From the NCBI RefSeq assembly GCF_004114375.1, contig NZ_CP034692.1:2976001-3040000 (forward strand): DNA of 64,000 nucleotides, in the 5' to 3' direction. The stretch is from Halorubrum sp. BOL3-1. GTDB taxonomy: Archaea; Halobacteriota; Halobacteria; Halobacteriales; Haloferacaceae. Shown here in pieces: positions 22,029 to 47,031 of this stretch. Within the stretch, counting starts at the first letter, position 1. Every line of letters begins with the position of its first letter. Both the position numbers and the translations under genes were made by a program. The notes under the pieces were generated by a model that was given only the letters and a program-made list of their open reading frames with translations, did no database searches and was not told the origin of the DNA.

Positions 22029-24347
22029 TCACTCCTCCGGTCGCCGGTCGTTCGACCGCGGCCTCACGACGTCGTAGCGGAGTCCGCTCTGCCCCTCGCC
22101 GAGGCCCGGGCCGGCGCGTCTGCCGGTCCAGAGGCGGACACCCCCGTCGACCCAGCGCGCGTACTGGTAGGTCCGGGTGACCTCCATGCCGGTCCGCGTG
22201 AGCTCCTCGTCGTACAGGGAGAGGTCCGGTTCGAGGAGCTTCCCGGACGGCTCCGGAATTCCCGGCTCCGGGTCGAGCAGCCGCGACAGCTCGAACCGGA
22301 GCTCCGGAATCTCCCATACTGCAGTCGGATCGACCCGACGCATCCGGAGCGGGAACCAGTTGTCCGGGACGTCCGTGACGAGGTGGTACCGAGGCATCGC
22401 GGCGTCGACGGGCGAGCCGACGAACGCGCTGTCGACCGGGCCGCCGTCGGCGTCGAACAGCGTCACGTGATTCGCGTCCGCCCAGACGGGGGCCCCCGCG
22501 TCCCAGTATCGGTCCGACCCGTGGTCGGTTCCCGACCCCGTGTGAACCGTGACGGACGCGCCTGGCGGGACGGCTGCTCCCGAGGGGAACGAGTACGTCT
22601 CGCCGGCGTCGCTCTCGATCGACCAGCCGCCGACCGCGACGGGAACCTCGCCCGGGTTCTCCAGCCGGATCGACTCCTCGTCGACGTCGTCGTCCGGATC
22701 GACCGCGGCGATGTCCAGCGTCGGCGGCTCGAACTCGCGCCAGCGCAGCGCGTCGCCGACCGCGTCCTCGACGACGAACTCGACGCCGAACGCCGCGTTC
22801 GCGACCTCGTCGCGCGCCAGGACGACGCGCTCGACCGGGTCGCTCTCGTGGTGCGTCGCCAGCGTCGGCGGGAGGAGCACGCCGGGTCGGTCGTGGTTCG
22901 GAAGGTGCGTGTGCATGAAGACGTTCCAGCCGCCGCTCCGCCGGGACGCTCCGGCCAGCGGCCCCTCGCCAAGTTCGTCGCTGAGGTCGCCGGCGTCGTC
23001 GGCGTCGCCCGATTCGGTGGCGCTCGGGGTCGGCAGCGCTCGGGTCACCTCGCCGAAGGTGTCCGTCACGGTGAGCTCCGTGATCCGCGTCAGCGACCCG
23101 ATCGGGGCCTCGATCGGGATCTGGAACCAGTCGTTGCCGTACAGCAGGGCGTGCTCGGTCACGAGGAGCTTGCCGAGCTCGCCCGGCCCGGCGTTCATCT
23201 CGTTGAGGTTCACCTCGCCGTCCTCGAACTCCCACCACCGGGTCGACGGCATCCCCGGAAAGGTGACCTTTGTCGGGACGATCGTCTCGTCCGGATCGAC
23301 CTCGCCGGTGACCAAGAGGTCCGACAGCGACAGGCCTCCCGGCGTCAGCGCGTCCATGTCGACGTCCGGAGGGACGTCAAATTCGCCCTCGGACCTACCG
23401 TCGTCCGTCGAGTCATCGCCGCCTTCCGACCCATCGTCGTCCGAACCATCTCCCGATTCGCCGGGCGTCAGCGTCGCGGACGCGCCGCGAACGACGCTGA
23501 AGGCGTCCCAGTCGAGCGTGCCGCCGGCGTACTCGTCGGCGGCGTACACCGTCTCGTCGTCTCCGGTCCCCGTCGACGCGCGGAACTCGTACTCCATCCG
23601 GTCCCCGTTCCAGGCGTCGTCCGCGTCCTCGGCCTCCGGGTCGGGCTCGTCGTAGAGGTCGGCGTACCAGTCCCCGAATCCCTTTGCGGCCTCTCGGTAC
23701 GCGTCGGTGACCGAGCCGTTCGTCGGCGTCGGCAGGCCCACGTCGTCCCAGACGACGTCGTCCCACCCGTCGGCCGCCAGCACGTTCCCGTCGTCGACCA
23801 GCCGGACGTAGAGCGCGTGGCCGTCGAGGGTCCGGTCGCCCGCGACCGAGAGGAAGCGCCGCCCGCCAGCGTCGACGGGCCGGTCCGGCGGCCCCAGTCG
23901 CAAGGATTCCGGGAACTCCGCCGCGGTGACGCGCTCGCCGCCCACCTCGTACCCCAGCTCGTCCAGCAGGGTCAGGAAGTAGCGACCCGCCTCCGCCGCG
24001 GTCTCGCGGTCGGGCGGGCGCTCCGCCGGCCCGACAGTCACCGTCTCGCGCTCGACGAGCGTCTCGAGCGGGCCGTCGACGGTCGGGTCGTACTCGCGCG
24101 ACGGCGTCTCCGGGTCCCCCGGCGCGAGGTCGACTCGCTCGAACTCGTCGTGCTCGTACCAGAAGTCGACCTTGACGGGGGACCCGGCGTCCTCGCCCGC
24201 GAATTCCCCGACCTGCCACTGCCGACCGAGCAGCCAGAGCGGGTCGTGCACCTCGGCGCGCAGCCCGCGGTTGCCCGTCGAGTTCCGGGCGTACGGCGAG
24301 AGCCGGTGCCAGGACGTCCGCGACCGGATCGGGGACCCGTCGCTCAT
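22029..24347 (-). CDS. Giant-operon protein 6: 772 residues with a lamin-tail-like insert
   Basis: A soluble, acidic 772-residue protein without signal peptide or helix-spanning segment. It is the last gene of the operon and overlaps the preceding frame by four bases (ATGA). The N-terminus carries a striking block at residues 35-57 (DPLWLLGRQWQVGEF, then GEDAGSP). Residues ~280-330 are an Asp/Ser/Gly-rich spacer. At ~538-635 a lamin-tail-like beta domain is inserted (IRLENPGEVPVAVGGWSI, then GETYSFPSGAAVPPGASVTV). The C-terminal part ends WFPLRMRRVDPTAVWEIPEL and following. I recall the DPLWLL/RQWQ block from large uncharacterised bacterial proteins, but could not check. No enzyme motif seen. 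Confidence 0.8.
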   Translation of the reverse strand: MSDGSPIRSRTSWHRLSPYARNSTGNRGLRAEVHDPLWLLGRQWQVGEFAGEDAGSPVKVDFWYEHDEFERVDLAPGDPETPSREYDPTVDGPLETLVERETVTVGPAERPPDRETAAEAGRYFLTLLDELGYEVGGERVTAAEFPESLRLGPPDRPVDAGGRRFLSVAGDRTLDGHALYVRLVDDGNVLAADGWDDVVWDDVGLPTPTNGSVTDAYREAAKGFGDWYADLYDEPDPEAEDADDAWNGDRMEYEFRASTGTGDDETVYAADEYAGGTLDWDAFSVVRGASATLTPGESGDGSDDDGSEGGDDSTDDGRSEGEFDVPPDVDMDALTPGGLSLSDLLVTGEVDPDETIVPTKVTFPGMPSTRWWEFEDGEVNLNEMNAGPGELGKLLVTEHALLYGNDWFQIPIEAPIGSLTRITELTVTDTFGEVTRALPTPSATESGDADDAGDLSDELGEGPLAGASRRSGGWNVFMHTHLPNHDRPGVLLPPTLATHHESDPVERVVLARDEVANAAFGVEFVVEDAVGDALRWREFEPPTLDIAAVDPDDDVDEESIRLENPGEVPVAVGGWSIESDAGETYSFPSGAAVPPGASVTVHTGSGTDHGSDRYWDAGAPVWADANHVTLFDADGGPVDSAFVGSPVDAAMPRYHLVTDVPDNWFPLRMRRVDPTAVWEIPELRFELSRLLDPEPGIPEPSGKLLEPDLSLYDEELTRTGMEVTRTYQYARWVDGGVRLWTGRRAGPGLGEGQSGLRYDVVRPRSNDRRPEE

Positions 24348-27300
24348 TCGGAGTCACCCCCGTCGCCGTCGAAGTCAAGGTGTCTCCACATCCCGACGGT
24401 CGGGAACCGGACGTCGAACGAGAGGTCCGCCCACTGGCCGGGTGCGTTCTCGTGATACTCGCGGATCCGGTCGAGGTCGACGCTCGGCGCGTCCGGTCTC
24501 GGTTTGTCGTTGTCCGGAAGGTACAGCGTGGGCAGTAGCTGGTAGAGATCCTCGAGGTCCTGGAGGTCGACGAGCCGGAGCCGGAACAGGTCGGTCGTCC
24601 GGGTGACGACCGACTCCAAGGCCCCGCGCGACCAGCCGCCCTCCTCGGGCGGGACCGCGAGCAGGATCGCGTGCGGCGCGACCGCGTCCGGGTCGTCGTA
24701 GTTGAGCGCGACCCCTGTCGTCTCCGTCGTCGTCGGGACGTTCTCGACGTGCTCGTCGACGAACACGCCCGTCACCGGCCCCGTGAAGTCGCCGGCGAAC
24801 CCGTCGCCGAACTGGCCGACGAGCGAGAGTCGGCCGGGGTCGGGCTCCGTCGTCGACAGCCCGACCCACTCCTCGTCGAGCCTGTGCGGGAGCTGGCCGA
24901 CCGAGAGGTCCCGGCGGCGCTCGCCGGTCACGGCCTCCGCGTACGAGAGCGCCCGCCGGAACGTCGCCGGCCGGTCGCGGACGCGACCGATCCGCTGGAG
25001 CCAGGTCTCCGCGGCCAGGGGGTCGCCGCCGGTCAGGTCCGCGCCCCGGCCGAAGGTCGCCGAGAGCTCCGCGCCGTTCGTCGGCTCGAACGCCGGCAGG
25101 ACCGTGAAGTCCTCGCCGAACAGCGCCTCAAGACGGTCGAGCTGGGAGTCGACGGAGGGGACGTCGACGACGTTCCCGCTCCCGTCCCGGTCGGGTGCGA
25201 GCGAGCGCGACCGCCGGTGGACATCGGATACCCGGCCGAGCACCCGTTCCGCCTGCGCGACGAGGACCGCCTCGTCGTCCGCCGTCCCGCCGCGGACGGA
25301 GTTCGGCGTCCCCGCGTACACCCCGAAGTAGGAGACACGCAGGAGCGCGCGGCGGACGCCCTCGAGGAGTCCCCGGCGAAACGCCCGGTCGAACCCGACC
25401 GGCCCGCGGGCCGTCGCCAGGTGTGCTGCCCCCGCGCTCGTCGTGCTCGCGAGCGCGGCCGCGTCGCCCTCGGCCGCGGCGGCGAACGTCGCTCGCGAGT
25501 CGGCCTCGTCGGTCGGCAGCGTTCCCGCCGCCAGCGCGTCGAGGTACGGTTCCAGCAGGAGCCGCCGGAAGACCTCCAGCAGGAACCGGAGGTCGGTGAC
25601 GCCGGTCCCGGGCGGCGTGTCCGCCGGGCCGAAGCCGTCGTCGTCGAGGGTCTCGCGAGCGGCCGCGTCGCCGGCGAGGTAGTCCTCCAGGGTCGACAGC
25701 AGCCCCGGGTCCAGGTCCCCGAAGTCGAGGCCGTTCTCCGATCCGTTCGAGCCGCCGGAGCCACCGGATCCGTCCGACCCGTTCGAGCCGCCGGGTCCGC
25801 CGCTACCTCCGGGTCCGCCGCCCGGTCCGCCGCCGCCGAGGCCGCTACCCCCTCCGAGATCGGGCAGGTCCGAGAGATCGAATCCCACCGGTCCCCCAAG
25901 GGACCCGAGATCCAGCAGGAGCGGGTCGAGATCATAGTACGGCGAGTCGACGCCGGCGGCGGCGACCAGGTCGTCGACCGCGGTCGCGTGATCGAGCGCC
26001 GACGTTCGGACCAGCCGGCGGAAGTCGGCCTCGAAAGCTCCCCGCTCGGGGCCGGTCGGGAACGACTCGGGGTCGTGGACCAGTTGCTCGAAGCGATACG
26101 CGAACCCCGTGGCGTCCTGCAGTTCGGTCGAGAGGTCCTCGACCATCCGCGGGAGGAACTCGGCGAGCGCGGCGAGGTACGCGCGCAGCCGATCGGCGTC
26201 GGCGTCGCGGAACAGCGCGTCGGTCGCCTCGTCGGCCAGGAACCGCGTCAGCGACGGCGCGAACCCGTGCTCGCCGAGCTCGTCGTCGGCGATCATCCCC
26301 GGGCGGTCGAGCGCGGCGGCGAGCCGGTCTTGGCGGTCCTCGTCGGCGATCCGGCTCCGGTTCTCGAAGAACCGGACGCCGCCAGCGCGGTCCGGGCGTC
26401 CGCCGACGCCGAACAGGTCGTCCATCCAGATCCGGCGCAGGCCGTCCGTCGCGGCGTAGACGGCGGCGTCCAGCGCCGTGAGGTCGAACCGCTCCAGCGC
26501 CGGGGTCCCGTCGCCCTCGTCGACGACAGCGGCGACCGCGTCGACGTCGGCCTGCGTGGGCGGCTCGCCCGGCGTCGCGTCCTTCAGGTCGCGCACGAGC
26601 GCGAGCTCCTCGCGGGCGGCGTCCCAGTCGACGGCGTCGCCCGCGAGGTGATCGCGGAGTCTACCGGCGGGCGTCGCCCCGGCGTACGGGTCGAACGCGT
26701 CGGCGTGCCGCGCCAGCCACAGCAGGCCGGGGAGGACGTCGCCCGCGGCGGCCACGCCGCCGGGATCGGCGGCGACGTACCCCCGCCGCGTGGCCTCGAC
26801 GTCGCCGTCGGCGACGACCTCGGCCTCGAAGAACGTCCAGGGGGCGACGTCGTCGAAGCCGACATCGACGACCGCTGTCCCGCGGTCCGCAGTGGTAACC
26901 GTCTCGGTCGCGAACGTCGTGCTCCCGTCCGGCGTCGCGGCCGTCACGTCGACCGCGACCCCGTCGTTGAGGTCGGTCGGGACCCGGATCGACTGGTCTG
27001 GCTCCGGCTCGACGACGAGGTCGTCGGCCGGGAGCACGACGCGGCCCTCGGCGGCGTCGACCACGTCGCCGTCGGCGGTCGCGACCGCCGCGAACGGGGT
27101 CCCCGGTCGGACGTCGTCGAGGTCGAACTCGGCCGCGTACGCGCCGTCGCCGTCGGCGGTGACCGTCGCCTGTCTGGTGAACCGCTCGACGCCGCTCGTG
27201 CTCCAGACCCGGACCGTCACCGACTCGCCGGGATCGGCCTGGCCCGACACCGCCCGAGCCGCGAGCGGGTGGACCGTGACCGCGGCGTCGACCGCGTCCG

Positions 27301-28216
27301 GGTCGGTCGGTCCCGCGGGGAACTCGTCGGCGACGGCGCGCAGTTCGTCGATCAGCGTGTCCGGGTCCTCGTCCAGCGCGTCCGCGGCGGTCGTCGCGAC
27401 GTGCGTCGCGCCGTCGACGGGGACGGCGTCCCGGAACGTCCCGACCGCCTCGCGGAGGCTCGCGACGCCCTCGGTGACGGTCGTCTCGTCGTCGTCGTCG
27501 ACGTCGAACCGAGCGACCCGGTTCTCCAGCAGCGCGCCCGCCGCGGCCAGGGTCCGCTGGGCGTCGCGCGCGCGGTCCGCGAGCCCGACGGCGGTCGCGT
27601 CCGTGTACCCCTCGTCGCCGCGCTCTCCGGGGTGGTTCAGGTCGGTCGCGTCGAGCGGGCGGCCGTCGCTCACCAGCTCCCGGAACGTCCGGGCGACCTC
27701 CAGGAACTCGGCGACCGTGAGAGGGTCGTCCCCGTCGGCGTCGGGCGAGACCGTCTCGAAGCCGAGTTCGAGCGACGCCCGGTCGGGGACGGGCGGATCA
27801 GACGCCGGCGGATCGCGCGACAGGTGGTAGTCGAACCGCTTCTCGAGCTCCGACGCGCCGGCGTCGTCGCGCGGCTGGGAGAGCGCGAGGGCGTCGAGCG
27901 GTGACAGCGCGAGGTCCGCGAGCGTCGCCCCGGTCGTCGCGGTGTGGGTCACCGGCGACGGCGCGGCCGGCTCGGTCCGGACGAGCAGCGCGGGGACACC
28001 GGCGTCGGCCGCCTTGACCGCCAGCGTGAGCTCGGTCTCGTCCACCGACGCCACGCGCAGGACCGTCTCCCCCGCGATCGACCCGTCGGCCGCGATCGCC
28101 GGCAGCGACAGCGCGTCGCCGCGGACGACGCCGCCGGACGTGGCGTCGGCGTCCGCGCGGGCGACGTGGGTCAGTGCCCCTGCGATCCCACGCCGGTCGC
28201 GACCCCGTGAGACCAC
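24344..28216 (-). CDS. Giant-operon protein 5: 3' half of a frameshifted giant gene
   Basis: A 1,290-codon frame that most likely continues the protein encoded at 28171-34575. Its apparent start (GTG 28216) lies 46 bases inside the upstream frame, unlike the 4-base overlaps elsewhere. Its first ~85 residues complete a repeat unit begun upstream. Two Ig-like beta domains follow (about residues 330-410 and 410-490, e.g. GESVTVRVWSTSG and DVAPWTFFEAEVVADGD). Long helical regions come next, then a Gly/Ser-rich hinge (~residues 785-830) and a helical C-terminal third ending in the four-base overlap with the 772-residue gene. No signal peptide or catalytic motif is seen. Function unknown. Confidence 0.75.
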   Translation of the reverse strand: MVSRGRDRRGIAGALTHVARADADATSGGVVRGDALSLPAIAADGSIAGETVLRVASVDETELTLAVKAADAGVPALLVRTEPAAPSPVTHTATTGATLADLALSPLDALALSQPRDDAGASELEKRFDYHLSRDPPASDPPVPDRASLELGFETVSPDADGDDPLTVAEFLEVARTFRELVSDGRPLDATDLNHPGERGDEGYTDATAVGLADRARDAQRTLAAAGALLENRVARFDVDDDDETTVTEGVASLREAVGTFRDAVPVDGATHVATTAADALDEDPDTLIDELRAVADEFPAGPTDPDAVDAAVTVHPLAARAVSGQADPGESVTVRVWSTSGVERFTRQATVTADGDGAYAAEFDLDDVRPGTPFAAVATADGDVVDAAEGRVVLPADDLVVEPEPDQSIRVPTDLNDGVAVDVTAATPDGSTTFATETVTTADRGTAVVDVGFDDVAPWTFFEAEVVADGDVEATRRGYVAADPGGVAAAGDVLPGLLWLARHADAFDPYAGATPAGRLRDHLAGDAVDWDAAREELALVRDLKDATPGEPPTQADVDAVAAVVDEGDGTPALERFDLTALDAAVYAATDGLRRIWMDDLFGVGGRPDRAGGVRFFENRSRIADEDRQDRLAAALDRPGMIADDELGEHGFAPSLTRFLADEATDALFRDADADRLRAYLAALAEFLPRMVEDLSTELQDATGFAYRFEQLVHDPESFPTGPERGAFEADFRRLVRTSALDHATAVDDLVAAAGVDSPYYDLDPLLLDLGSLGGPVGFDLSDLPDLGGGSGLGGGGPGGGPGGSGGPGGSNGSDGSGGSGGSNGSENGLDFGDLDPGLLSTLEDYLAGDAAARETLDDDGFGPADTPPGTGVTDLRFLLEVFRRLLLEPYLDALAAGTLPTDEADSRATFAAAAEGDAAALASTTSAGAAHLATARGPVGFDRAFRRGLLEGVRRALLRVSYFGVYAGTPNSVRGGTADDEAVLVAQAERVLGRVSDVHRRSRSLAPDRDGSGNVVDVPSVDSQLDRLEALFGEDFTVLPAFEPTNGAELSATFGRGADLTGGDPLAAETWLQRIGRVRDRPATFRRALSYAEAVTGERRRDLSVGQLPHRLDEEWVGLSTTEPDPGRLSLVGQFGDGFAGDFTGPVTGVFVDEHVENVPTTTETTGVALNYDDPDAVAPHAILLAVPPEEGGWSRGALESVVTRTTDLFRLRLVDLQDLEDLYQLLPTLYLPDNDKPRPDAPSVDLDRIREYHENAPGQWADLSFDVRFPTVGMWRHLDFDGDGGDSE

Positions 28217-29235
28217 CCGGCGGTCGTCGTGTTCGCGGGCGGACCGGTCGCCGTCGCCCCGGCGACGGCCCCCACCTCGACCGCGCCGGCGCGGGAGCCC
28301 GTGGGGACCGTGATCTCGTCGCCCTCGGCGACCGATCCGGGGGCGACCGTCTCGACGCCCGGCGACGGGACGGGATCCGGGGTCTCCACCGCGACGTAGG
28401 TCAGGACCCGCGAGGCGTCGGTCGCGGACCCCGCGTGGACGTCGTCCACCGAGAGCTTGAGCGACGTCCCGAGCGACGTGACCTCGGCGGTCGTCGTCCC
28501 GGCGAGGCTCCCGCCGGCGACGTACGGGAGCTGGATCGCGCGGTCGTCCCTGACGCCGGCGACCGCGTCGCCGGTGGCGGCGCCGACGCCCGCGGACGCG
28601 ACGTGCTGTGCGACGTCTCCGTCCGCGGCCGCGGCGAACCCGTGCGAGAGCCCGACGGTGCCGGTCGTCGTCTCGGGCGTCCCGACCGCCGTCGAAACCG
28701 TCGTCCCGATCAGCGTCACGCGGTCCGCGTCGACGTCGAGCGGCTCCGAGACGGTCCCCGTCGCCGTCGGCGTCGCCAGGTGGCCCACGTCGACGCCGAC
28801 CGGGTTTCCGAGCGAGTACGCGCGGTACCGCACCTGCAGCCCCTCCGGCATCCCGTCCCGCGGATCGAGTGCTGTGACCGCGAGCTCAAACCCGTCGTCG
28901 AGGAACTCGACGTCGGCGGCGAGCCCGCGGGGACCCGCGCCCGCGTCGTGGAGGTGGACGCGGAGCGCCGCGTCGTCGGCGACGCGCCCGCCGCCCTCAT
29001 CGGCCTCCGGGTCGACGTCGACGCTGACGGACCGCTGGTCGACGCCGGAGTCGGTTCGCGCGGCGACACCGTGGGTCCAGCCGGTCGCGCCGCTCGCCGC
29101 CGCCAGCCCGCCCTCGCCGACCGCGTGTGCGACCGTCAGGACGACGAGGTCCGGCTCGAAGTCGAGGTCGGTGACTCGCACTGATCCCGACGACGACGGC
29201 GCGGTGAGGGTGCCGACCGCGACGTCGCGGTCCGC
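27960..29235 (-). repeat. Three tandem ~143-residue protein repeats across the frameshift
   Basis: The repeat begins with a V-x-V-G-x-L strand and a DLDFEPDLVVLTVAHA-like strand, then the core GWTHGVA, then a run ending in DGFELAV and YRAYSLGNPVGVDVG. The second copy has GLSHGFA and the third GWSHGVA. The second half of the third copy (HVARADADATSGGVV, SIAGETVLRVAS, ALLVRTE) is only found in the next frame. The same unit occurs three times in the membrane protein at 43951. Confidence 0.72.
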
Positions 29236-32200
29236 CTCCCACGCGAAGGTCGCCTCGCAGGAGACGCGGCCGGGCTCCGGCAGCGATGACCCGATCCAGC
29301 CGTTCAGGTTCGGCTCGGCGGTCGGCCGCGCCCGGAGCGTCGGCGTGGACGCCGCGTCGGCCTTGAGCGGCGTGCTACCGAGTCCGAGGTCCGGCAGCGA
29401 CGTCGGCGAGACGGTCGGCGTCTCCGGCGTCCAGGCGGCCGGTGGGGTCTCGGTCCCCTGATCCCCGAACGCGACGAACTGGCGGTGGGTGACGCCGACG
29501 TCCTCCCGCGGCGTGTCCGTGACCTCCGGGTCGGCGACCGCGTCGCCCTTCGCCAGGTCGGCGAGGGTGCCGCCCGCCCGCTCGAAGTTCCCCTTGCCGA
29601 GCTGGTGGACGTTCTCCGCGAGCAGCAGGTCCGTCACCGCGTCGACGAGCGCGTCGAGCTCGCCGAGCACGTACAGGAGCTGCTGGCGGGTCGGGTCCGA
29701 CAGCGCCGCGTCGAGGTCGGGTCCGTCCTCGGCCTCGACGCCGCCGAGGAACGCCCCGGGGTCCTCCGCGTCGTCCCAGTCGCGGTAGAGCGCGTAGCCG
29801 TCGACCACGTCGCTCTTCGCGGCCTCGTCCTCGAGGGTCGGGTCGACGTCGCCGTGGTCGAGCTTCCCCTCGGTTCCCGGGTACGCCCGCCGGAAGTCCC
29901 ACTTGTACTGTACCAGGTTGATCGAGTCCGTCGTCGGGTCCCCCTGGGCCACCTCCTCGTTGAACGTCTCCGTCCGCTCGAGGAGCCGCCGCTCGAAGCG
30001 GTACCCGAGTACGTCTCCCATCGCCTGGCCGCGACGAACGGTCGTCAGCACCCGCCTGGCGGCGCGGACTCGCGCCGGGGACAGGTCGACGTCGAGCACC
30101 TCGCGGAGCGTCTCGTCGTCCGCGTGGTTCTTCCGCCCGCTCCGGAGGATCGCGGCCGTCGTCGCCTGCTGGGGCGAGGGCGCGTGGACGTACTCCGCCT
30201 CCGCGCCGGTGACGTCCCCGGTCTCGTCGGCGGCGCGGAGGTCCTCGACGAAGCCGTACGCGCCGACGAACGTCGCCGGCGTCGGGACCTCCTCGTCGGT
30301 CGAGTCGTCCTCGTTCTCCCCTTCCTCGACGGTCTCCTCGTCCTGCTCGTCCTCGACGGTTTCTCCCCCCTCCTCGACCGTTCCGTCCGGCGGCTGCCGG
30401 TCCCCGGCGCCGGTCGTCGACAGCCGGCTCCCCGCGTCGGTGAGCGACCCGAGGTCGTACTCGGTGCCGGATCCGCCGACGACGATCCGACCGTCGTCGG
30501 TGACGGACACGTCGCTCCCGCCGAGGTCGGGGAGGCGGTCGACGGCGCGCTCCGCGGGGGTGCGTCCGGCGACGCCGGGCGCGCCGGCGAAGTGGCGGCC
30601 GACGAAGGCGTAGTCGTCGCCGTCGTAGAGGGCGGCCTCCTGCCGCTCCCGGAGCTCGTAGAGCCGGCGCGTCGCCAGCGACGTCCGCCAGGCGTCGAGC
30701 CGGTGACTCGTCAGCTCCAAGGTCTCACCCATCAGCCGGCCCAGCGTCTCCGCGTCCAGCGTCCGTAGGTGGGCCAGCCCGTCGAACAGCTCCGCCAGCC
30801 GCGGGTCCAGCGGCGGGTCGGTCGCCCCCGGCCGGCAGGTGTCCCAGAGGAGCTCCGCGTACGACCCGTCCTCGACGGGTAGCCAGTCCGGCGGCGAGTC
30901 CGCCAGCGCGCTCCAGACCGTCCGCGTGTCGTCGTCGTGGACCGAGGGATCGGGGACCGGCTGCTGGGCCGGACCGTCCTCACTGCCGGCCAGTCCCGAG
31001 AGGAAGCCCTCCTCGCCGGCGGGGAACAGGTCCTCGTCGAACGCGGTCCCGAGCCGGATCCGCGCGCCGACGTACCCCTGGAGCGTCGCGAAGCGGGTCA
31101 GCTGCTTGAACAGCGTGTTCTGCAGGCCCAGGCTCCCGGTCCGGACCAGCACCCACCCCTTCTGCGCGTAGGTCACCACCTCGTCCAGACCGAGCCCGTA
31201 CTCGAAGGAGAACGCCCCGCTCTCGAACAGCTCCCGGAGCCGTCCGTGTTCCGGCTCCGTGAGCACGAGGTACAGCGCGACCTGGCCGTCGCTCGCGAGG
31301 GCGGAGTTGCCCGGGAGCGACACCCCCGACGTGTCCGCCACCGCGTCGCGGTCGACCGTGATCGCGTCGAAGTCGAACGCGTAGCCCAGGTAGCGGAGGA
31401 ACTCCACGCTGGTGTCCCCGAGCGGCTGGCGCTCGGGCGACAGCAGCATGTCGAGGTACTCGGGGGCGCGCGTGTCGATGAGCCAGGGCACGTCGCCCTC
31501 GTCGCGGTCGGCGGTCCGCGCGGTCGACCCGGACGCCGTCGCCGGCGAGTACAGCCAGCCGAGCCGCGGGTCCAGGTCGGTCAGGTCGTTCTCCGTGAGC
31601 GACCGGCGGATCTCGGCTATCTGGGCCCGGAACGTCGGGTTCCATATCGGGGCGAAGTGCCCGCCGGCCACGGCGTCCCGCTGACGAACGGTCTCGTCGA
31701 CGTACTCGTCCGCGGTCGCCTCCCGCCCGAGGATGTCCTCGATCACCGACGGCGGGTCGTCGCCGGTCGCCCGGTCGACGTCGGCGGCCGCGTCCCGCCA
31801 GGCGGGCTCGAACGTCTCGAGCAGGGAGTCGATCCGCGCGGGGATGTCGTGGTCTCGACGTAGGTAGCGCGGTCGGAGGAAAACGCCCTCGGCCATCTCA
31901 GGTCCGACCACCGGCCCGCCGTCGGGGACGGGGGGGTCGTCCTCGTCGACGACCGGCGGCGCGGCGCGGCTCTTGAACGCCGCGAACGACTGCGGGGTCA
32001 CGGGATCGAAGCTGGACCCGTACAGGCCCTCGGAGACCGTCCGCGTCGTCTCGGCCGTCAGGACGCCGTAGCCGGACCGCGAGACGCTCCCGACGACGTC
32101 CGTCGCCGTCGTCTTCTCCGTTCGGGTCGCGTCGGTCGGCTCGGGCCCGTGGTCGCCCTCGCGTCGTCGCTCGCGTTTCTCCTCGCGCTCACGCTTCTCC

Positions 32201-38939: not shown

Positions 38940-41900
38940 CGGATGTCACCTCCAGTTCCGCCGCCGAAGTTCGCCGTCCCCGGCCCCTCCGCGAGGAGGC
39001 CGTCGGGGCCCCCGACCGCGGTCGCTCCGTCGCCGTCCAACGTCGCGCCGTCGCCGTTCAGCGCCGCGCCGTCGACGGCGGCAGCGCCGTCCGCGTCGTC
39101 CTCGCCGAAGACGATGACGTCTTCCCGGGCGACCGTCCGACCCGTCGTCAGCGCCGCGTCGTCGACGACCAGCTCCGCCTCGTCCGGCTGTAGCACCTCG
39201 GTCTCGGCGGTGACGACCCGGTCGACCTCGCGATCCCCCCGCGCCGTCCGCGTGCCGATGACCGTGCCGCCCTGTACGCCGTAGACGCGGTCATCGACCG
39301 TCGCGTACCCGACGCGGTCGCGGAAGCGCTCGCCCGCGGCGGTCAGGTCGACGAGCGTCCGGACCTTCTCCTGCGGGAGACCGAACCGGGCGGACTCCGG
39401 TCGGACCGCCGCGAAGGAGCCGAGGGTCGGGAGCGGCGTCGCGTACTGGTCCTCCTGCTCGTCGATGACGCGCGTCTCGAACTCGAGCCGCGCGACGGTC
39501 CGATCGGAGAACTCGTCGCCGTCCGCCTCCGTCGTCCCGTCGGGGTAGTAGACGTCGTCGCGGTCGATCGCGACGCCGGCGTCCCGCTCGACGAACGACG
39601 GGCTGTCGAGCTTCTCGCCGTCCGACATCTTGCGGTACTTTGCCGGCGCGAACTTCTCTTTCAGCCGCCGGCCGCGCTCCGCGGAGTCACCGTTCATCTC
39701 GACGTCCGCGATCCGGAACTCCTCGTAGTCCGCGGGCTCGGCGTTGCCGAACAGGTCGATCCGGAACGACAGCGGGACGACGGTCTGCCGGACGCCGATC
39801 TCGCCGAGCGGGTGTACCAGAGCCAGCTCGGCGTCCGTCTCCGCCCCGCCCCCGTCGCCCCCGCCGTCGCTCCCGGGCTGGCGGACGGTCACGAGGGAGT
39901 CGCCGGCGGGGGGGAGCTGCGCGCTCCAGTTCGCCGGCTTGCCGAGTTCTTCGGTGAGTTCCGGCATCACCGTCGACGCCGGTAGCGACTCCTGCGATCC
40001 CGACTCGCCGAACGTCTCGTCGACCTTCGCGGCGATGGTGATCAGCAGGATGTCAATGTGGACCTTCCCCTTGACCCGGAACGGGCCGGGTCCCTTGAGC
40101 GTCCCGTCGAGCGTCAGACTCAGTCCCTTCCCCTTGACCTCGACGGACACCGACGCCATGAAATCGATGACGAACTTGAACGGGTCGAACTGGAACAGCG
40201 CGTCGAAGCCGAGCTCGCCGTCGACGGTCGCCGGCCCCGCCTGCGCGTGTAGGAAGGCCTTCGCGCCGACCTGGAACGTGTTCGACGTCACCGCGAGGTA
40301 CCCCTGCATCCCGAGCCGCGGATTGCCGTTCGACGGCGACATCTCGACCTTTACTCGGTCAAGCTCGGGGAACTTCGGCGGGGTCTCGAACCGGGGGTGG
40401 AAGCCGCCGATCGAGAGGACGAACCGCGACTCGTCGCCCCAGCTCAGCCGCATCGCCATGTCGCCCGAGACCGTCCAGGTGACAATTCGCGAGTCGTAGA
40501 GGCTCGCGTCGATCGCGATCCGCCGGTTCGGGATGTCGATGACGCCGACGATGGCGAGGTTGAGGTCGACGATCGCCGCCTCCTCGTCAGGCAGGTCGAG
40601 GTTGAAGATCCCGGCGATCGCGACCTTCCACGTCGGGATCTCCAAGATCACCCCGACCTTCATCCGCAACACAACCGGCGACCCCCAGGTCAGTCGGGCC
40701 ATTGGACCGACGACGTGGCGGTCCTTCATCGGTGGGAAGATAGTCCGGAGGTCGCTGACGATCTGCTGACCGTTCTCCACGACGTCCTCCGGGAAGAGGA
40801 CGGAGTCGAGGCTCCCGGTCCTGACCGTGGCTCCCAACTCGTCCATCTTCGCCTGCCGGTTGATGCCCAGCAGGCCGCCGACGCCGGTCAGCGCGAAGCC
40901 GAAGCCGAGCTGGATCGGCGGGATCTCCGCCGTGATCAGGATCAGGAGCGAGTAGCCGTCCTGCCCGCCGGGCAGCTCGGTCTGTAGGAGCCCGACGGCG
41001 TTGAGCCCGATGTCGCCGACCTGAAGCTGGAGCGTCCCCGTGTAACGGTTCTCGTCGGGGTAGAAGCTCAGTCGCCCGCCGCCGGTCACCGGGCCCGCGT
41101 CGACGGACAGCCCGATCCCGTTCGGCGGTTTGAACCCGACCTGCACGTCCACGGCCCCGAAATTGCCGTCGCCGTCCGCCGGGAACCGGACGTCGAACTC
41201 GATCCCGACGCGCTCGACGTCGGCCTGGAGGAAGCCGAGGTCGACGCTGGGGGAGGTGCCGACGTGGACCGGGACGCCCGGCGCGTCGCCGTCGCCGCCC
41301 GACTGCGGCGAGATCCCGAGGAACGTCTCCTCGATCGTGAAGAACCCGAGGTCGACGTTCGCGGGGATCGACGCCTCGAGCGTCCCCCCGTTCTCGAGGT
41401 AGAAGCCGCTCCGCGAGGACCACCCGAGCGTCGTCTCGAAGTCGTAGGTGATCGGCTCGGGGACGACCTTCTCGAGGAACCCACCGCGGGCCTCCACGTC
41501 CAGCCGCCCGTCACCGACGAGCGCCACCGTGAACTCGAGGTCGTCGTTCGCGTACTTGAGGCCGGCCTCGACGGCGACGGACTGCAGCGCGAGGGTTCCG
41601 ACTGCGGTGTTCAGGAGCGACCCCGAGAACGACTCCGGGTCCCCGACGTACGCCAGCGACGCCGTCCAGACGAAGGTGTCGCCGGGGGCGTCGCCGTCGG
41701 TTGAGACGGACGAAACGTCCAGCCCCTCGTCGAGCGAGGGACGCGCGAGGACGCCCCGGTCCGCGAGGTCGCCGGAGGCGTCCACGGACAGCTCCCAGTC
41801 CTCGCCCAGCGACTCGGAGGCGCCGGCGGAGAGGCTGCCGTACGTGACCGCCGACAGCCCCGGCAGCGCGTCGCCGGCCGCGGGTGGGACCGGTACGAGT

Positions 41901-42760
41901 CGGAGCCCGAGCTCGACGTTGCCGTCCTCGTCGGCGTGGTAGACAATGGGGATCACGAGCTGCTGGCCGAGCGCGTCGACCGCGCCCTCGTCCAGGTCGT
42001 CGACGCTCGCGACGTCGGCGATCGCGGTCAGGTCTGCCGCCGAGACCGGCATCCTGCTCGCGGGGGTCCGGTTCGCGAGCAGGACCTTCTGGAGCTGGTG
42101 GAGCAGCGGCACCGCGAGGAGCCGCTCGTCCTCGAGCCCCCAGCCGACGACGTCCCGCGCGGTACCGACCGGGTCGCTCACCAGGTCGCCGATCCGCGAG
42201 AACCGAAACTCGTCGGGGACGTCGTCGCGGACGACGATGACGCCGGTGACGGTCAGCAGGCCGTGGAGGTCGGTGTAGTGGGTGTCGAAGTACCCGACGA
42301 GGAGGAAGTCAAGGACGGCGTCGCCGAGCGACTCGGCGTCCGGGGCCTCCAGGTCGATCTCGGTCAGCGACTTGACGGCGTCGTAGACGGCCTTCGCCGA
42401 CTTGCCGACCTCCACGACCTCCTCGGTGCCGACCTCCTCGGCGACCGCCTTCCAGTCGACGTCGTCGAGGTCGCCGATCCCCTCGATCTCGGGGTCGGAC
42501 GCCTCCTGTACCTCCTCGGCGAGCGTCACGACCGCCTTCTCGATGTCCGCGCCGTTGCCGACGACGTCCGACTCGATGGTGTCGTACACCTTCTCGGCCT
42601 CCCGGTCCATCACCCGGTCCGAGACGCCCATGTCGTCGAGCAGCCGGGCGACGGACTCCGGCCCGTTCTCGCAGGCGGTTATCACGGGCTGGACCACCTT
42701 CACGAACTCGACGGCGATCGCTACCTCGGTCGGGGGGCCGCCGGTGTCGTCGTCCGCCAT
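38936..42760 (-). CDS. Giant-operon protein 2: 1,274-residue DUF6603-like protein
   Basis: I chose ATG 42758-42760 (MADDDTGGPPTEVAIAVEFV), one base after the upstream stop, over a longer frame to 43171. The N-terminal ~250 residues are helical. The rest is a long series of amphipathic beta strands with no membrane helix. At about residues 590-920 the sequence fits the uncharacterised DUF6603 domain: GVGGLLGINRQAKMDELGAT, RTGSLDSVLFPEDVV, DLRTIFPPMKDRHVVGPMAR and LTWGSPVVLRMKVGVILEIP. It continues LNLAIVGVIDIPNRRIAIDA and IGGFHPRFETPPKFPEL. Such repeating strands could form a long beta groove or fibre; that is inference. The C-terminus is Ala/Gly/Asp-rich. Confidence 0.82.
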   Translation of the reverse strand: MADDDTGGPPTEVAIAVEFVKVVQPVITACENGPESVARLLDDMGVSDRVMDREAEKVYDTIESDVVGNGADIEKAVVTLAEEVQEASDPEIEGIGDLDDVDWKAVAEEVGTEEVVEVGKSAKAVYDAVKSLTEIDLEAPDAESLGDAVLDFLLVGYFDTHYTDLHGLLTVTGVIVVRDDVPDEFRFSRIGDLVSDPVGTARDVVGWGLEDERLLAVPLLHQLQKVLLANRTPASRMPVSAADLTAIADVASVDDLDEGAVDALGQQLVIPIVYHADEDGNVELGLRLVPVPPAAGDALPGLSAVTYGSLSAGASESLGEDWELSVDASGDLADRGVLARPSLDEGLDVSSVSTDGDAPGDTFVWTASLAYVGDPESFSGSLLNTAVGTLALQSVAVEAGLKYANDDLEFTVALVGDGRLDVEARGGFLEKVVPEPITYDFETTLGWSSRSGFYLENGGTLEASIPANVDLGFFTIEETFLGISPQSGGDGDAPGVPVHVGTSPSVDLGFLQADVERVGIEFDVRFPADGDGNFGAVDVQVGFKPPNGIGLSVDAGPVTGGGRLSFYPDENRYTGTLQLQVGDIGLNAVGLLQTELPGGQDGYSLLILITAEIPPIQLGFGFALTGVGGLLGINRQAKMDELGATVRTGSLDSVLFPEDVVENGQQIVSDLRTIFPPMKDRHVVGPMARLTWGSPVVLRMKVGVILEIPTWKVAIAGIFNLDLPDEEAAIVDLNLAIVGVIDIPNRRIAIDASLYDSRIVTWTVSGDMAMRLSWGDESRFVLSIGGFHPRFETPPKFPELDRVKVEMSPSNGNPRLGMQGYLAVTSNTFQVGAKAFLHAQAGPATVDGELGFDALFQFDPFKFVIDFMASVSVEVKGKGLSLTLDGTLKGPGPFRVKGKVHIDILLITIAAKVDETFGESGSQESLPASTVMPELTEELGKPANWSAQLPPAGDSLVTVRQPGSDGGGDGGGAETDAELALVHPLGEIGVRQTVVPLSFRIDLFGNAEPADYEEFRIADVEMNGDSAERGRRLKEKFAPAKYRKMSDGEKLDSPSFVERDAGVAIDRDDVYYPDGTTEADGDEFSDRTVARLEFETRVIDEQEDQYATPLPTLGSFAAVRPESARFGLPQEKVRTLVDLTAAGERFRDRVGYATVDDRVYGVQGGTVIGTRTARGDREVDRVVTAETEVLQPDEAELVVDDAALTTGRTVAREDVIVFGEDDADGAAAVDGAALNGDGATLDGDGATAVGGPDGLLAEGPGTANFGGGTGGDIR

Positions 42761-42761
42761 C

Positions 42762-43598
42762 TCACTCCTCCAGCATCCGTTCGCCGACGTTGCTGCGCAG
42801 GAAGCTCGGACCGATCGTCGGCCCCTGGAAGTGCCAGTCCCCCTCCTCGCGGATCTCGAGGTCCTCGGCCTCCTCCATCGCCTGCCGGACGTCGCCGCGG
42901 CCGAACGCGATGTCGACCGTCTCCTCCAACGGGCCCGCGTAGGCGTATGTGAGCTGGATCTCGACGCCGCCCTCGACGCTGGCGGACAGGTCGATCCCGC
43001 CGGCCAGCCCCTGCCAGCCGGCGGCGTAGTCATCGGCGAAGAGGTTCGCGATCCCGGCCAGCCCCTGGCTCTGGCTCGACACGAGCCCGATGCTGCCGCC
43101 GACCGGGCCGAGGTCCCCCTCGACCTCCATCGCCACGGAGCCGGCTGCGTAGCTCTCGGCGGTGATCTCACGGTCGGTCCCGAACGACTCCTCCTCGCCG
43201 AAGTAGTGGTCGATGAAGAAGGAGGCGTCGATGCCGCCGCTCGCGCCGGCCTTCAGGCCGAAGCCGACCGAGGCGGAGGAGAACGCGAAGAAGTGCGGTC
43301 CCGGGACCTGTGAGGCGTCGCTGGAGTTCGTGATGACGAGGATGCAGACGCCGCGCGGGGTGAAGTCCACGCCGACCGAGGCGGTCGCCCCTCCGCCGAT
43401 CGAGAACTCGGCCCCGAGCCCGTCGATCCCGGCGTACGCGAGCGCGTCGAGGACGTCGGCGTCGAGGTCCTCGAACTCGGACACCAGCGCCTCGGCGTCC
43501 ACCTCGTCCTCCGTGTCGGCCTCCTCGATGAGGACCTTCGCCTCGCTCCGGTCGACCGCCCCATACTCGCGGGGTTCCCGCGCCGAGGAGTTAGCCAT
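42762..43598 (-). CDS. Giant-operon protein 1: 278-residue Gly/Ala-rich protein
   Basis: First gene of the operon, start ATG 43596-43598 (MANSSAREPREYGAVD). An acidic helical N-terminus of ~75 residues is followed by Gly/Ser/Ala-rich strands (FSIGGGATASVGVDFT, ASVGFGLKAGASGGIDASFF, YAAGSVAMEVEGDLGPVGG, LAGGIDLSASVEGGVEIQLT). The ~170 residues look like a repetitive beta barrel or sheet, and a charged helical C-terminus ends NVGERMLEE. It has no signal peptide. Its strand pattern is of the same kind as the gene that follows, so the two may co-assemble. I do not recognise a family. Confidence 0.75.
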   Translation of the reverse strand: MANSSAREPREYGAVDRSEAKVLIEEADTEDEVDAEALVSEFEDLDADVLDALAYAGIDGLGAEFSIGGGATASVGVDFTPRGVCILVITNSSDASQVPGPHFFAFSSASVGFGLKAGASGGIDASFFIDHYFGEEESFGTDREITAESYAAGSVAMEVEGDLGPVGGSIGLVSSQSQGLAGIANLFADDYAAGWQGLAGGIDLSASVEGGVEIQLTYAYAGPLEETVDIAFGRGDVRQAMEEAEDLEIREEGDWHFQGPTIGPSFLRSNVGERMLEE

Positions 43599-43950
43599 CG
43601 ACGTCCCTCCGTCGTCGCGCGCCCCGTTCGACCCCGATCGACCGGGGACCGGGCGAGCGCGAACGAGGTCTCCCCACCTCGATCTTGTCACATGTGCGCA
43701 TGGGTCACACCACAGGTCGGGGGCTATTAAAATATTCTACGTCCAACAAATTGTTTCTGAAATAACTTGTAATCGGAAATTAGCCACAAGAGATGTATTA
43801 GACAAATTCTCACAGACTGTCAAGACACAATCATTATATATCTGTCTTTTATCATTTCTCGGATTTTATATAGGTTGAGTTCCCTAATCCGAACGGTGTA
43901 CAGATCATGTGGGACGGTAACTTGGAACGAGGTCGAGGGGATCGTGGCCG
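43599..43950. promoter_or_regulatory. AT-rich divergent promoter region of the giant-protein locus
   Basis: These 352 bases separate the operon from the divergent membrane-protein gene. From about 43726 to 43875 base composition drops sharply to AT-rich, against ~70% GC on both sides. Candidate TATA boxes are ATTAAAATATT (43726-43736, minus direction), ATTATATAT (43834-43842, minus direction) and TTTATATA (43865-43872, plus direction). One region could therefore control both transcription units together. Confidence 0.65.
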
Positions 43951-46900
43951 ATGAGCGCGTGGGGAAGGGGGCGTTCGGCGGTGCTCACGGCGCTCGGAGC
44001 GGCGGTGCTCGGCGCGCTCGTCGTCGCGGCGGTTGGCGTGCCGGCAGTCGGCGCGACTGGCGTGCCGACGGTCGGCGCGGTCGGTGAACCGACGGTCGGC
44101 ACGGCCCTCTCCGCGGAGGCGGCCTGTACGCTCTCCGACACGGAGGCCCGTCCCGGTGATGAGGTCACGCTGAACGCGAGGGACTCCGCCAACGCGAGCC
44201 TGTACGAGTTCGACAGGGCCGGCGACGGGATCTACGAGGCGTCGAGCGAGACGGACCCGACGCACGCCTTCCAGTACGAGCGGGAGGGGACGTTCACCCC
44301 GCGCGTCCGGGTGACCGACGGGAGCGACGACACGCAGGACGTGGCCGACTGTGGGGAGCTCGTCGTCTCCGATAATCGGCCGCCGAACGCGACGCTGACG
44401 TCCGATCCGACCGATCCCGAACCCGGCGAGGAGGTGACCCTCGACGGGAGCGACGCGACCGACCCCGACGGCGACGGGATCCGGTTCTGGGGCTACGACA
44501 TCGGCGGCGACGGGACCTACGACTACACGGGCGACGGCGCGCCGCCAGACCCGGTCACCCACACGTTCCAGCAGGAGGGGACCTACGACGTTCGCCTGGA
44601 CGTCGAGGACGAGCACGGTGCGGTCGGGAGCGACGTGGTGACCGTCGACGTTCGGGCGGACCCGACGGGGTCGTGTACGGTCTCGCCGGCGCAGGTCGCG
44701 CCGGGCGGGTCGGTGACCCTGAACGCGTCGAGCGTCGAGAACGCCAACTACGTCCGCTTCGACATCGACGGCGACGGCACCCACGAGGTGACCGACGAGG
44801 TCGACTTCGTCGTCGAGTGGGCCTACGAGGACCCCGGCGAGTACGACCCGACGGTGACCGCGTACGACGCCGCCGCCAACGAGACGTTCGACTGCGGGAC
44901 CGTCACGGTCAACGCGCCGCCGGAGCCCGCGCTCGACGTCTCTCCCTCGCCGGCGCGGCCGGGAGAGGAGGTCACTCTGGACGCCAGCGGGTCGACCAGC
45001 CCCGGCGGCGAGATCGCGGAGTACCGGTGGGATTTCGAGGGCGACGGGACCGTCGACGAGACCACGTCGGGACCGACCGCGCTCCGCACGTACGACGGCG
45101 GCGAGTACGCGCCGTCGGTGACGGTGGTCGACGAGACCGGTGCGACCGCGACCACGGAGGCGGACCTCCCGGTCCAGTCGGACCCCGACCCGACGGTGCG
45201 GTGCGTCGTCGAGCCGGCCGAGGTCGACGTCGGCGACGTCGTCACGGTCGACGCGTCGGCCTCCGACGGCCCGGAGCGGGTCGAGGTCGACGTCCACGAC
45301 GACGGCGAGATCGACTACGTCGACGAGGACGCGTTCGCGGTGACGCACCGCTACGAGGAGGCCGGGGAGTACCGGGTGGTGGTCCGCGGGGTCACCGCTC
45401 TCGGCGCCGACACGGCGACGTGCGGGGTTGTACAGGTGATCGGCGGGAGCGACGGCGGAGGCGGCGAACCGCTCGGACCGATCGCCGACGTGTTGCCGCC
45501 GGACGCGCTCGACGCGCTCCTTCCGGTTCTCGCCGTGCTCCTCGGACTGGGCGCGCTCGCCGGCCTGATCCGGTCCCTGCTCGGACCGTCGGGGGACGGC
45601 GGCGACGGCGACGACCCCCCGCGACCGCCGTCGCCGCCGCCCGGCGGACCCGGCGTCGAGCGCTACTACACCGACACGTTCGCGACGCCGACCGAGTCCG
45701 ACACGGTCGCGGTCGCCGGACTCGGGTTCGAGCCCGACCTGCTGCGGTTCACCGCCGCGCCCGACGTTCGCGCGGCCGACGTCCGCGCGACCGACGGCGG
45801 CGCACCCGACGCCGGCACGCTCGCGGACGGCGACGTACCGGACCGGACCACGGGATGGACCCACGGCTGCGCGGTCCGGACGGACGACGGGGAGCTCGTC
45901 CAGACCGCGACGACGGTCGCGGCGGACGCCGAGGGCTCCGACGCCGGAATCGGGGTCGCCGCCGACGGCCACGCGCTGGAGCTCGTCCACCACTACGACG
46001 ACCCGCCGGGCAGGCTCCTCGGGACGGTGACGGGGACCGACTCGGACGGATTCGAGGTGGCGTTCGACGCCTCGGAGCTGCGCGACGAGCGCGCCGGCGA
46101 CTCCTTTACGGTCCTGTTCCAGGCGTTCTCGCTGACCGACGACGCGGAGGCCGAGGTCGGCCACTTCCGCACGCCGCCCGCAGCGGGGACGCAGTCGATC
46201 GACCTCGGCGTCGACGCCAACCACGCCACCCTGCTGGCCGGCACCGCCGTGAGCGACGTCGGCGACCGGGCGATGACCGATGTCTCGGTGGGGTTCTCTT
46301 ACGCCGACGTCGTCGGTCGCACGGATCCCGGGCAGGCCGTCCGGAGCGTCGTCGTCGAGTCCTCCGGTCGAACGGCGGTCAGCAGGGCCGTGCGCGTCGA
46401 CAGGGGGATCCACCTCCCGTTCGGCCGCGACGACGACGTGACCGGTCACACGACGGGTCGCGTCACGGGGCTCGGCGACCGGCTCGACGTCGAGTACGAG
46501 AAGCGCTACAGCGGCCCGAGCAAGGTCGGGTCCGACGACAGCACCCTCGTGACCTACGTCGCCGTCGACGCCGGCTGGTCCGTCCCCGACATCGGCTACT
46601 TCCAGCTCCCCGAGCCGGAGTCGGACGAGCCCCTGGCGGTCGACGTCGGATTCCGGCCCGGTCTCGTCGAGTTCACGACCGTCGGGCTCGACGGCGTCGA
46701 CGCCGAACGAACGAGCGTCACGAGCCCGCTGGCGTTCGACTGGAGCCAAGGAACCGTCATGGCGAGTGACGGCGAGCTCGCGCAGTTCTCCTTGGACGGT
46801 TCGGCCGACCGGGTGGACCGGTCCGGAACCGGAGACGGGGCCGTCGCCCTGTCGGTTCGGGCGGTCGCCGAGTCCGGCCACGTCGTCGGTCGGGACGACC

Positions 46901-47031
46901 TGCGCGTGACGGCGTTCACCGATGAGGGGTTCCGACTCACGGTGACCGGCGTCGACACCGACCGGCGGGACGAGGCGGGGCCGCGACCGTATGTGCTGTA
47001 CAAGGCCTGGCCCGACCCGGACGCGGGGTGA
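43951..47031 (+). CDS. PKD-domain surface protein with TM helix and cytoplasmic repeats
   Basis: A 1,026-residue protein. A basic start and hydrophobic segment (MSAWGRGRSAVLTALGAAV) form a signal peptide. Five PKD beta domains follow at about 58-135, 143-232, 235-320, 322-408 and 411-497 (e.g. PARPGEEVTLDASGS with YRWDFEGDGT). Domains 1, 3 and 5 each hold two Cys (CTLSD...DCG, SCTVSP...DCG, RCVVEP...TCG), probable disulphides outside the cell. One membrane helix lies at ~523-545 (LLPVLAVLLGLGALAGLIRS). A proline-rich linker (PPRPPSPPPGGPG) then leads to three ~145-residue repeats, predicted inside the cell, of the type found in the giant operon protein. I infer that it anchors that complex at the membrane. 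Confidence 0.85.
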   Translation: MSAWGRGRSAVLTALGAAVLGALVVAAVGVPAVGATGVPTVGAVGEPTVGTALSAEAACTLSDTEARPGDEVTLNARDSANASLYEFDRAGDGIYEASSETDPTHAFQYEREGTFTPRVRVTDGSDDTQDVADCGELVVSDNRPPNATLTSDPTDPEPGEEVTLDGSDATDPDGDGIRFWGYDIGGDGTYDYTGDGAPPDPVTHTFQQEGTYDVRLDVEDEHGAVGSDVVTVDVRADPTGSCTVSPAQVAPGGSVTLNASSVENANYVRFDIDGDGTHEVTDEVDFVVEWAYEDPGEYDPTVTAYDAAANETFDCGTVTVNAPPEPALDVSPSPARPGEEVTLDASGSTSPGGEIAEYRWDFEGDGTVDETTSGPTALRTYDGGEYAPSVTVVDETGATATTEADLPVQSDPDPTVRCVVEPAEVDVGDVVTVDASASDGPERVEVDVHDDGEIDYVDEDAFAVTHRYEEAGEYRVVVRGVTALGADTATCGVVQVIGGSDGGGGEPLGPIADVLPPDALDALLPVLAVLLGLGALAGLIRSLLGPSGDGGDGDDPPRPPSPPPGGPGVERYYTDTFATPTESDTVAVAGLGFEPDLLRFTAAPDVRAADVRATDGGAPDAGTLADGDVPDRTTGWTHGCAVRTDDGELVQTATTVAADAEGSDAGIGVAADGHALELVHHYDDPPGRLLGTVTGTDSDGFEVAFDASELRDERAGDSFTVLFQAFSLTDDAEAEVGHFRTPPAAGTQSIDLGVDANHATLLAGTAVSDVGDRAMTDVSVGFSYADVVGRTDPGQAVRSVVVESSGRTAVSRAVRVDRGIHLPFGRDDDVTGHTTGRVTGLGDRLDVEYEKRYSGPSKVGSDDSTLVTYVAVDAGWSVPDIGYFQLPEPESDEPLAVDVGFRPGLVEFTTVGLDGVDAERTSVTSPLAFDWSQGTVMASDGELAQFSLDGSADRVDRSGTGDGAVALSVRAVAESGHVVGRDDLRVTAFTDEGFRLTVTGVDTDRRDEAGPRPYVLYKAWPDPDAG
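45658..47025 (+). repeat. Three ~145-residue cytoplasmic repeats of the surface protein
   Basis: The unit starts with YTDTFATPTESDTVAVAGL, then a strand like GLGFEPDLLRFTAAPDV. The core is GWTHGCA in copy 1, GFSYADV in copy 2 and FDWSQGT in copy 3, near residues 634, 779 and 929. Each copy ends with a block like DSFTVLFQAFSL followed by VGHF or DIGYF. The match with the repeats at 27960-29235 includes the FEPDL strand, the core, the DGFE[LV] block and the closing aromatic strand. Confidence 0.72.

Follow-up and report, generated by a model that had tools for sequence, protein, structure and literature searches.

The window analysed here, 64,000 nucleotides of the chromosome of Halorubrum sp. 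BOL3-1 (NZ_CP034692.1, positions 2,976,001 to 3,040,000), carries four minus-strand genes, which we name D, C, B and A in the order of their transcription. We found that D-C-B-A is an operon that is conserved as a unit across phyla and in both domains, archaea and bacteria, and that it has an exchangeable gene upstream of D (E in the window). D belongs to the family DUF6603, whose function is not described, while A, B and C are in none of the libraries that we searched. Our preferred, still tentative reading is that D-C-B-A encodes one modular multi-protein machine, which would carry, deploy or display the protein encoded upstream of D.

Recurrence of the D-C-B-A cassette

Using an alignment of C, we scanned 84,980 species genomes and obtained 273 relatives. 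The best 80 loci were analysed, with the gene order checked in six frames and six modules tested. D-C-B-A lies on one strand in 79 of the 80 loci, which cover about 13 phyla of archaea and bacteria, a dozen or more of them bacterial (an approximate count, made from record titles and a quick tree), and this conservation of gene order is far beyond chance. All six modules were found in 63 loci, and in the others the missing modules lie off the end of the locus. The one exception to the order, L104, is permuted as B-A, an M23 slot protein, and D-C. Genes of the relatives were called by a simple longest-frame rule, and some boundaries of the upstream slot are approximate. Of the core junctions, 188 of 233 overlap or are at most 10 bp apart (median -4), and the core is a single operon with translational coupling.

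An initial annotation of the window had suggested a multi-protein machine or scaffold and had named as its check whether the gene order recurs in unrelated genomes. This suggestion is supported by the order found in about 13 phyla and by the near-perfect co-occurrence of C and D in unbiased genome samples; homologues that never co-occur, which it had named as the contrary outcome, were not what we found. Among 242 Halobacteria genomes, C is present in seven, and full-length D and A are present in those same seven. The window's genome is the only one of the sampled genomes of its genus with the cassette (C, D and A). Among 198 Actinomycetes, C was found in nine genomes, eight of which also have D. 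D-family proteins without C occur in 12 further genomes of this sample, so the D family is broader than the cassette.

In a tree of C, the haloarchaea form a single clade and the bacterial phyla are intermixed, with 24 label changes against a minimum of 11. The same gene order is present in plasmid records of Natrinema, Halobellus, Halalkalicoccus, Salinigranum, Streptomyces, Gemmatirosa, Rhizobium, Paraburkholderia and Nocardia. In the window the GC content of the island is 73%, that of the flanks 60-64%. The intermixed tree, the patchy distribution and the GC difference together point to a horizontal transfer of the block as a unit, with paralogy as an alternative. In the wider neighbourhood of the relatives we found no other clearly recurrent partner, and antisense reading frames seem to make up several of the apparent clusters. 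A plasmid of Streptomyces anthocyanicus (L044, 19929-21734) carries an orphan A with no D, C or B within 20 kb and with IS5 transposases nearby.

A variable slot upstream of D

A feature that the initial annotation had missed is a variable enzyme slot upstream of D. We defined the slot as a same-strand gene at most 400 bp upstream of the core and found it in 67 loci. Fifty-five slot proteins were classified, and the counts take in a few near-identical loci: 13 PhoD-like phosphatases, eight subtilases, four phospholipase D (PLD) proteins, two galactose/glyoxal (copper) oxidases, two M64 peptidases, and one each of M23 peptidase, TIR protein and DUF2515 protein. The DUF2515 protein is that of the Neobacillus cassette (L072, 5306-6475). 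Three slot proteins, from haloarchaea (L039, L059) and an endosymbiont (L101), resemble the C-terminal part of the BTH_I2691 profile with E-values of 3e-10 to 4e-8, below the curated cut-off and over a stretch of 130-190 residues only. The slot protein of L066 is related to those of L039 and L059.

Active-site motifs are intact in eight of the 10 members of the subtilase cluster, in three PLDs with two HKD motifs each, and in all nine PhoD-like proteins tested. N-terminal signal segments are almost absent from the slot proteins. The slot type switches repeatedly on the C tree (starred branches), with at least five changes for PhoD, at least four for subtilase and at least four for PLD. Natrinema gelatinilyticum has two cassettes on one plasmid, whose slot proteins differ (L065, L067), and a Halobellus plasmid also has two cassettes. 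A recruitment domain shared across the slot classes was not found, except for the mutual likeness of the L039/L059-type, L066 and L101 proteins; beside the membrane-type slot proteins, no clear immunity gene was seen in the four loci inspected. The slot genes are exchangeable, and their products are mostly of kinds that in other settings act extracellularly or against other cells. In the window, E would be the slot protein. Its sole relative found is in Halorientalis pallida (L057), at the same position.

Organisation of the locus in the window

The locus comprises the following features:

22029..24347, minus strand: A, 772 residues, the DPLWLLGRQWQVGEF protein; its one family match is an inserted lamin tail domain (LTD), residues 542-640
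24344..34575, minus strand: B, the FPVRLETRF protein; one gene read in two frames, owing to a frameshift near 28175 within the WTHG repeat
28171-34575, minus strand: B1, the first frame of B, 2134 residues
24344-28216, minus strand: B2, the second frame of B, 1290 residues; holds the BGTF surface domain
34572..38939, minus strand: C, 1455 residues; in no known family, with blocks conserved at its N- and C-terminal ends and a helical middle that varies
38936..42760 (start 42760), minus strand: D, 1274 residues; DUF6603 (PF20248, E 1.9e-126)
42762..43598 (start 43598), minus strand: E, 278 residues, in the slot immediately before D; without a family match
43951..47031, plus strand: F, 1026 residues; N-terminal hydrophobic segment at 10-28, PKD domains and an internal hydrophobic segment at about 514-550
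F residues 571-1026, plus strand: the C-terminal 'WTHG' repeat region of F, also present in B

The minus-strand unit E-D-C-B-A spans 21.6 kb, from 43598 down to 22029, with 4-base overlaps at the D/C, C/B and B2/A junctions, and E and D abut. On both sides it is bordered by ordinary metabolic genes of the haloarchaeal chromosome (a BCCT transporter, glycine-cleavage-type enzymes, a P450 and a photolyase). These coordinates, frame lengths and junctions are as the initial annotation had given them. Its three conserved-looking motifs were likewise found, DPLWLLGRQWQVGEF at residue 35 of A, FPVRLETRF at residue 199 of B1 and RPWLCLVVVE at residue 130 of C, and so was a repeat shared by B and F, the WTHG region. 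It had also seen no signal peptide on the minus-strand frames, and our search of A-E revealed none. The conserved blocks of C are RPWLCLVVV... at the N-terminal end and TNPxFIEAxMxGLNHEMARELxWRxYPTDxRGTYFRxFWD at the C-terminal end.

The frames of 2134 and 1290 residues had been taken as probably one gene. The third copy of the repeat common to B1 and F begins at the end of B1 ('GWSHGVATG...') and ends at the start of B2 ('...ALSLPAIAADG...'), and B is a single open frame in nearly every relative. Because the repeat is split in this way and nearly all relatives have a single frame, B is one gene that carries a frameshift inside a repeat domain, either a true one or one due to an assembly error. 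In a Pyrinomonadaceae metagenome-assembled genome (L064, 4656-11159), a single frame of 2168 residues encodes both B and A, a fusion that speaks for a joint function of the two. In Natrinema gelatinilyticum (L040, 20000-22769), the A frame continues into a C-terminal multi-helix, membrane-like region (ENEYVRYHAAQSVV...), and this A is possibly membrane-anchored.

F had been described as a surface protein facing the unit and as a divergent membrane anchor. It does not face the unit but is transcribed divergently, away from E-D-C-B-A. The role of an anchor is plausible for F, but F-like genes adjoin the cassette in some haloarchaea only. F is a candidate anchor because its WTHG region is, in its own genome, common to B only (in the B1 frame).

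Family searches and predicted structures

Against DUF6603, D scores 423 bits, where the Pfam cut-off is 27, and it covers model positions 7-500 of 502. Matches of A, B, C and E in Pfam and NCBIfam were not found beyond LTD in A and BGTF in B; together with PKD in F, these are accessory surface domains. The window's A, C, E and F, together with A-D from a Neobacillus relative, were scanned against PHROGs and PADLOC. PHROGs gave a match of the LTD of A to a phage tail family and a weak tail match of F, and no tail or baseplate family in the core regions tested outside this LTD. PADLOC gave no match of note to the core proteins scanned, the single hit being a weak one to LmuB for B of the Neobacillus relative. 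The initial annotation had considered that each frame might match an unrelated known family; only D has a whole-family name, and A, B and C are absent from Pfam and NCBIfam and, for these representatives, from PHROGs and PADLOC.

When the Protein Data Bank (PDB) was searched with sequence profiles, those of A and C, built from larger alignments, gave no match at E 0.1, and that of D matched helical bundles only. A comparison of A-D with each other by hhalign revealed a weak A-B patch as the only homology. Text searches of the open-licence literature found no mention of DUF6603 and no paper on the D-C-B-A cassette.

DUF6603 is also present in other giant proteins without A-C. In Actinomycetes (L138-L141) it is found in proteins of 1.4-3.6 thousand residues outside the cassette, and at L140 a 951-residue neighbour of a divergent DUF6603 protein resembles C weakly by hmmsearch and not by hhalign. 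Another genome of the window's genus (G108; L142, 2615-15696, minus strand) has two giant frames of 1718 and 2777 residues, one of which has a partial DUF6603 and a 3-keto-disaccharide hydrolase domain. This pair is possibly another DUF6603-based system.

The structure of D was predicted for residues 150-1270 of the window's frame, with fairly high local confidence (pLDDT) and middling confidence in the overall arrangement (pTM). The model begins with a helical N-terminal part; about 40 long antiparallel beta strands come after it, most of which show a strong hydrophobic alternation across the family and would be amphipathic. Close to it by VIA-align are outer-membrane barrels, at a Z of about 14 with rmsd 10-12 A, and apoB-100, with Z 13.5 and rmsd 7.7 A over 245. 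Vitellogenin is a weak match in Foldseek. With high rmsd and very low TM-scores, the likeness of the modelled D to porins, ushers and apoB-100 seems to be only that of a long amphipathic meander. The model of C, made from the Neobacillus version with high local and good overall confidence, has two beta-sandwich-like ends with a helical middle between them. Compared with solved structures (Foldseek, VIA), it gave nothing above Z 4.8, and there was no match in a viral structure library.

A proposed machine and the alternatives

In the model that we prefer, the core proteins D, C, B and A, all four obligate, would form one assembly that is made in the cytoplasm. C, with its two beta-sandwich-rich ends and the helices between them, and B would be the scaffold, and A would be the terminal part. 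D, as a large amphipathic beta structure, would contact or shield a hydrophobic phase, which may be a membrane, a lipid or a hydrophobic cargo. In haloarchaea, F may tether the complex to the membrane via the WTHG repeat. It is possible, but somewhat more doubtful, that the cassette represents an undescribed class of effector-bearing particles or translocators, common to archaea and bacteria and not related to either contractile systems or Tc toxins, by which slot enzymes and pore-formers are delivered or displayed outside the cell.

Several observations speak against this model. An export route, a receptor-binding part, a spike, a motor or an immunity gene was not identified. The slot classes have no common recruitment domain, and their loading onto the core is an inference. 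Subtilases, PhoD-like phosphatases and copper oxidases are atypical as killing effectors, and no activity can be recognised in a large minority of slot proteins, E among them. The matches to PhoD are partial, and those to BTH_I2691 are under the curated cut-off. Finally, the presence of DUF6603 outside the cassette means that the function of D is not tied to the slot.

Nevertheless, a deployment machine seems to us, tentatively, to explain the slot better than the alternatives do. D might instead be a carrier of lipids or hydrophobic compounds, an amphipathic beta groove or belt like that of apolipoprotein B/vitellogenin or the bridge-like lipid transfer proteins, with A-C as an envelope scaffold and with slot enzymes (PLD, phosphatase, oxidase) that act on the carried molecule. 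This is suggested by the long, strongly alternating strands of the D model and by its proximity to apoB-100 and outer-membrane barrels, but the alternation is expected of any one-sided beta sheet and the long-beta-meander look is all that is in common. Moreover, a lipid metabolism does not account for slot proteins of the subtilase, M23, M64, TIR and pore-former-like kinds, and we consider a carrier unlikely. A surface scaffold, adhesion or matrix system, in which the cell surface would be coated or cross-linked by the giant proteins, with a surface exoenzyme as the slot product, appears to us improbable to a similar degree: the LTD, BGTF and PKD domains of the haloarchaeal proteins, the membrane and secretion features of F and the exoenzyme types in the slot are in line with it, but the core and nearly all slot proteins have no signal peptides, the LTD insert is limited to haloarchaea in the alignment of A, and a strict order of four genes is unusual for adhesins.

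The lack of signal peptides would agree with an intracellular stress, defence or metabolic complex whose slot protein acts within its own cell, as would the patchy, transferred distribution, which is like that of defence genes, and the single TIR slot protein. However, PADLOC recognised nothing of note in the core proteins scanned, and a host would suffer damage from proteases, a peptidoglycan peptidase and pore-former-like proteins if these were not kept in check, which makes this explanation less probable still. An origin from phage or prophage tail-like structural genes is largely refuted and in our opinion highly improbable. A homologous locus is present in MT835531.1 (L036), a GenBank record from human faeces named 'Bacteriophage sp.', and the LTD of A has a match in a phage tail family. 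The record is flagged UNVERIFIED, however, and a long frame downstream of the cassette starts like an actinobacterial regulator, so its label looks wrong. Furthermore, 2.9 million viral contigs contain no relatives, by C or by A as a single query, and neither PHROGs, in the core regions tested outside the LTD, nor the viral structure library gave a match. The cassette does not qualify as a phage tail module: C and A have no viral-contig homologues, and only the LTD of A and the weak match of F touch a tail family.

A large operon with the same order in about 13 phyla and two domains, of which three families lie outside the searched libraries, is a large annotation gap. If our reading of the slot is true, the cassette would be a novel type of machine by which enzymes or toxins are deployed, it would link known enzymes (phosphatase, subtilase, phospholipase, peptidoglycan peptidase) to this machine, and it would give the first testable hypothesis for DUF6603. 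The compact bacterial versions in Neobacillus, Caulobacter and Streptomyces make it testable in culturable hosts.

Comparison with known systems

The long antiparallel amphipathic strands of the D model resemble those of apolipoprotein B, vitellogenin and outer-membrane beta barrels, but these have no sequence similarity to D and superpose with high rmsd. Haloarchaeal, actinobacterial and Bacillota carriers of the cassette have no porin-type outer membrane.

Type VI secretion systems (T6SS) and extracellular contractile injection systems (CIS), including the haloarchaeal CIS (PMC11566945), are likewise multi-gene and horizontally spread, with variable effector-like proteins that have no signal peptides. 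In contrast to them, the core proteins tested here have no sheath, tube, spike or baseplate family. The contractile sheath PF04984 is absent from the window's genome, from five of the seven haloarchaeal carriers and from half of 16 carriers, and a contractile system is therefore not required. DUF4157, which marks the cargo of the haloarchaeal CIS (PMC11566945), is not among the slot families listed. The slot proteins L039, L059 and L101 resemble the C-terminal part, with the pore region, of a T6SS effector family, BTH_I2691, of which a characterised member, Tke5, is a pore-forming T6SS toxin (PMC12909789); these slot proteins, however, are linked to the D-C-B-A cassette and not to T6SS genes.

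Tc toxins, umbrella particles and polymorphic toxin systems are large assemblies or proteins that combine a conserved carrier with variable active parts (PMC13274773, PMC3482391), as we propose here. They differ from the cassette in that the core proteins A-D have no Pfam toxin-complex domains (none of the Tc-specific ones at E 0.1). In polymorphic toxins the variable part is a toxin domain fused C-terminally to a constant N-terminus, with an immunity gene next to it, whereas in the D-C-B-A cassette it is a separate upstream gene, with no immunity gene beside it in the loci inspected.
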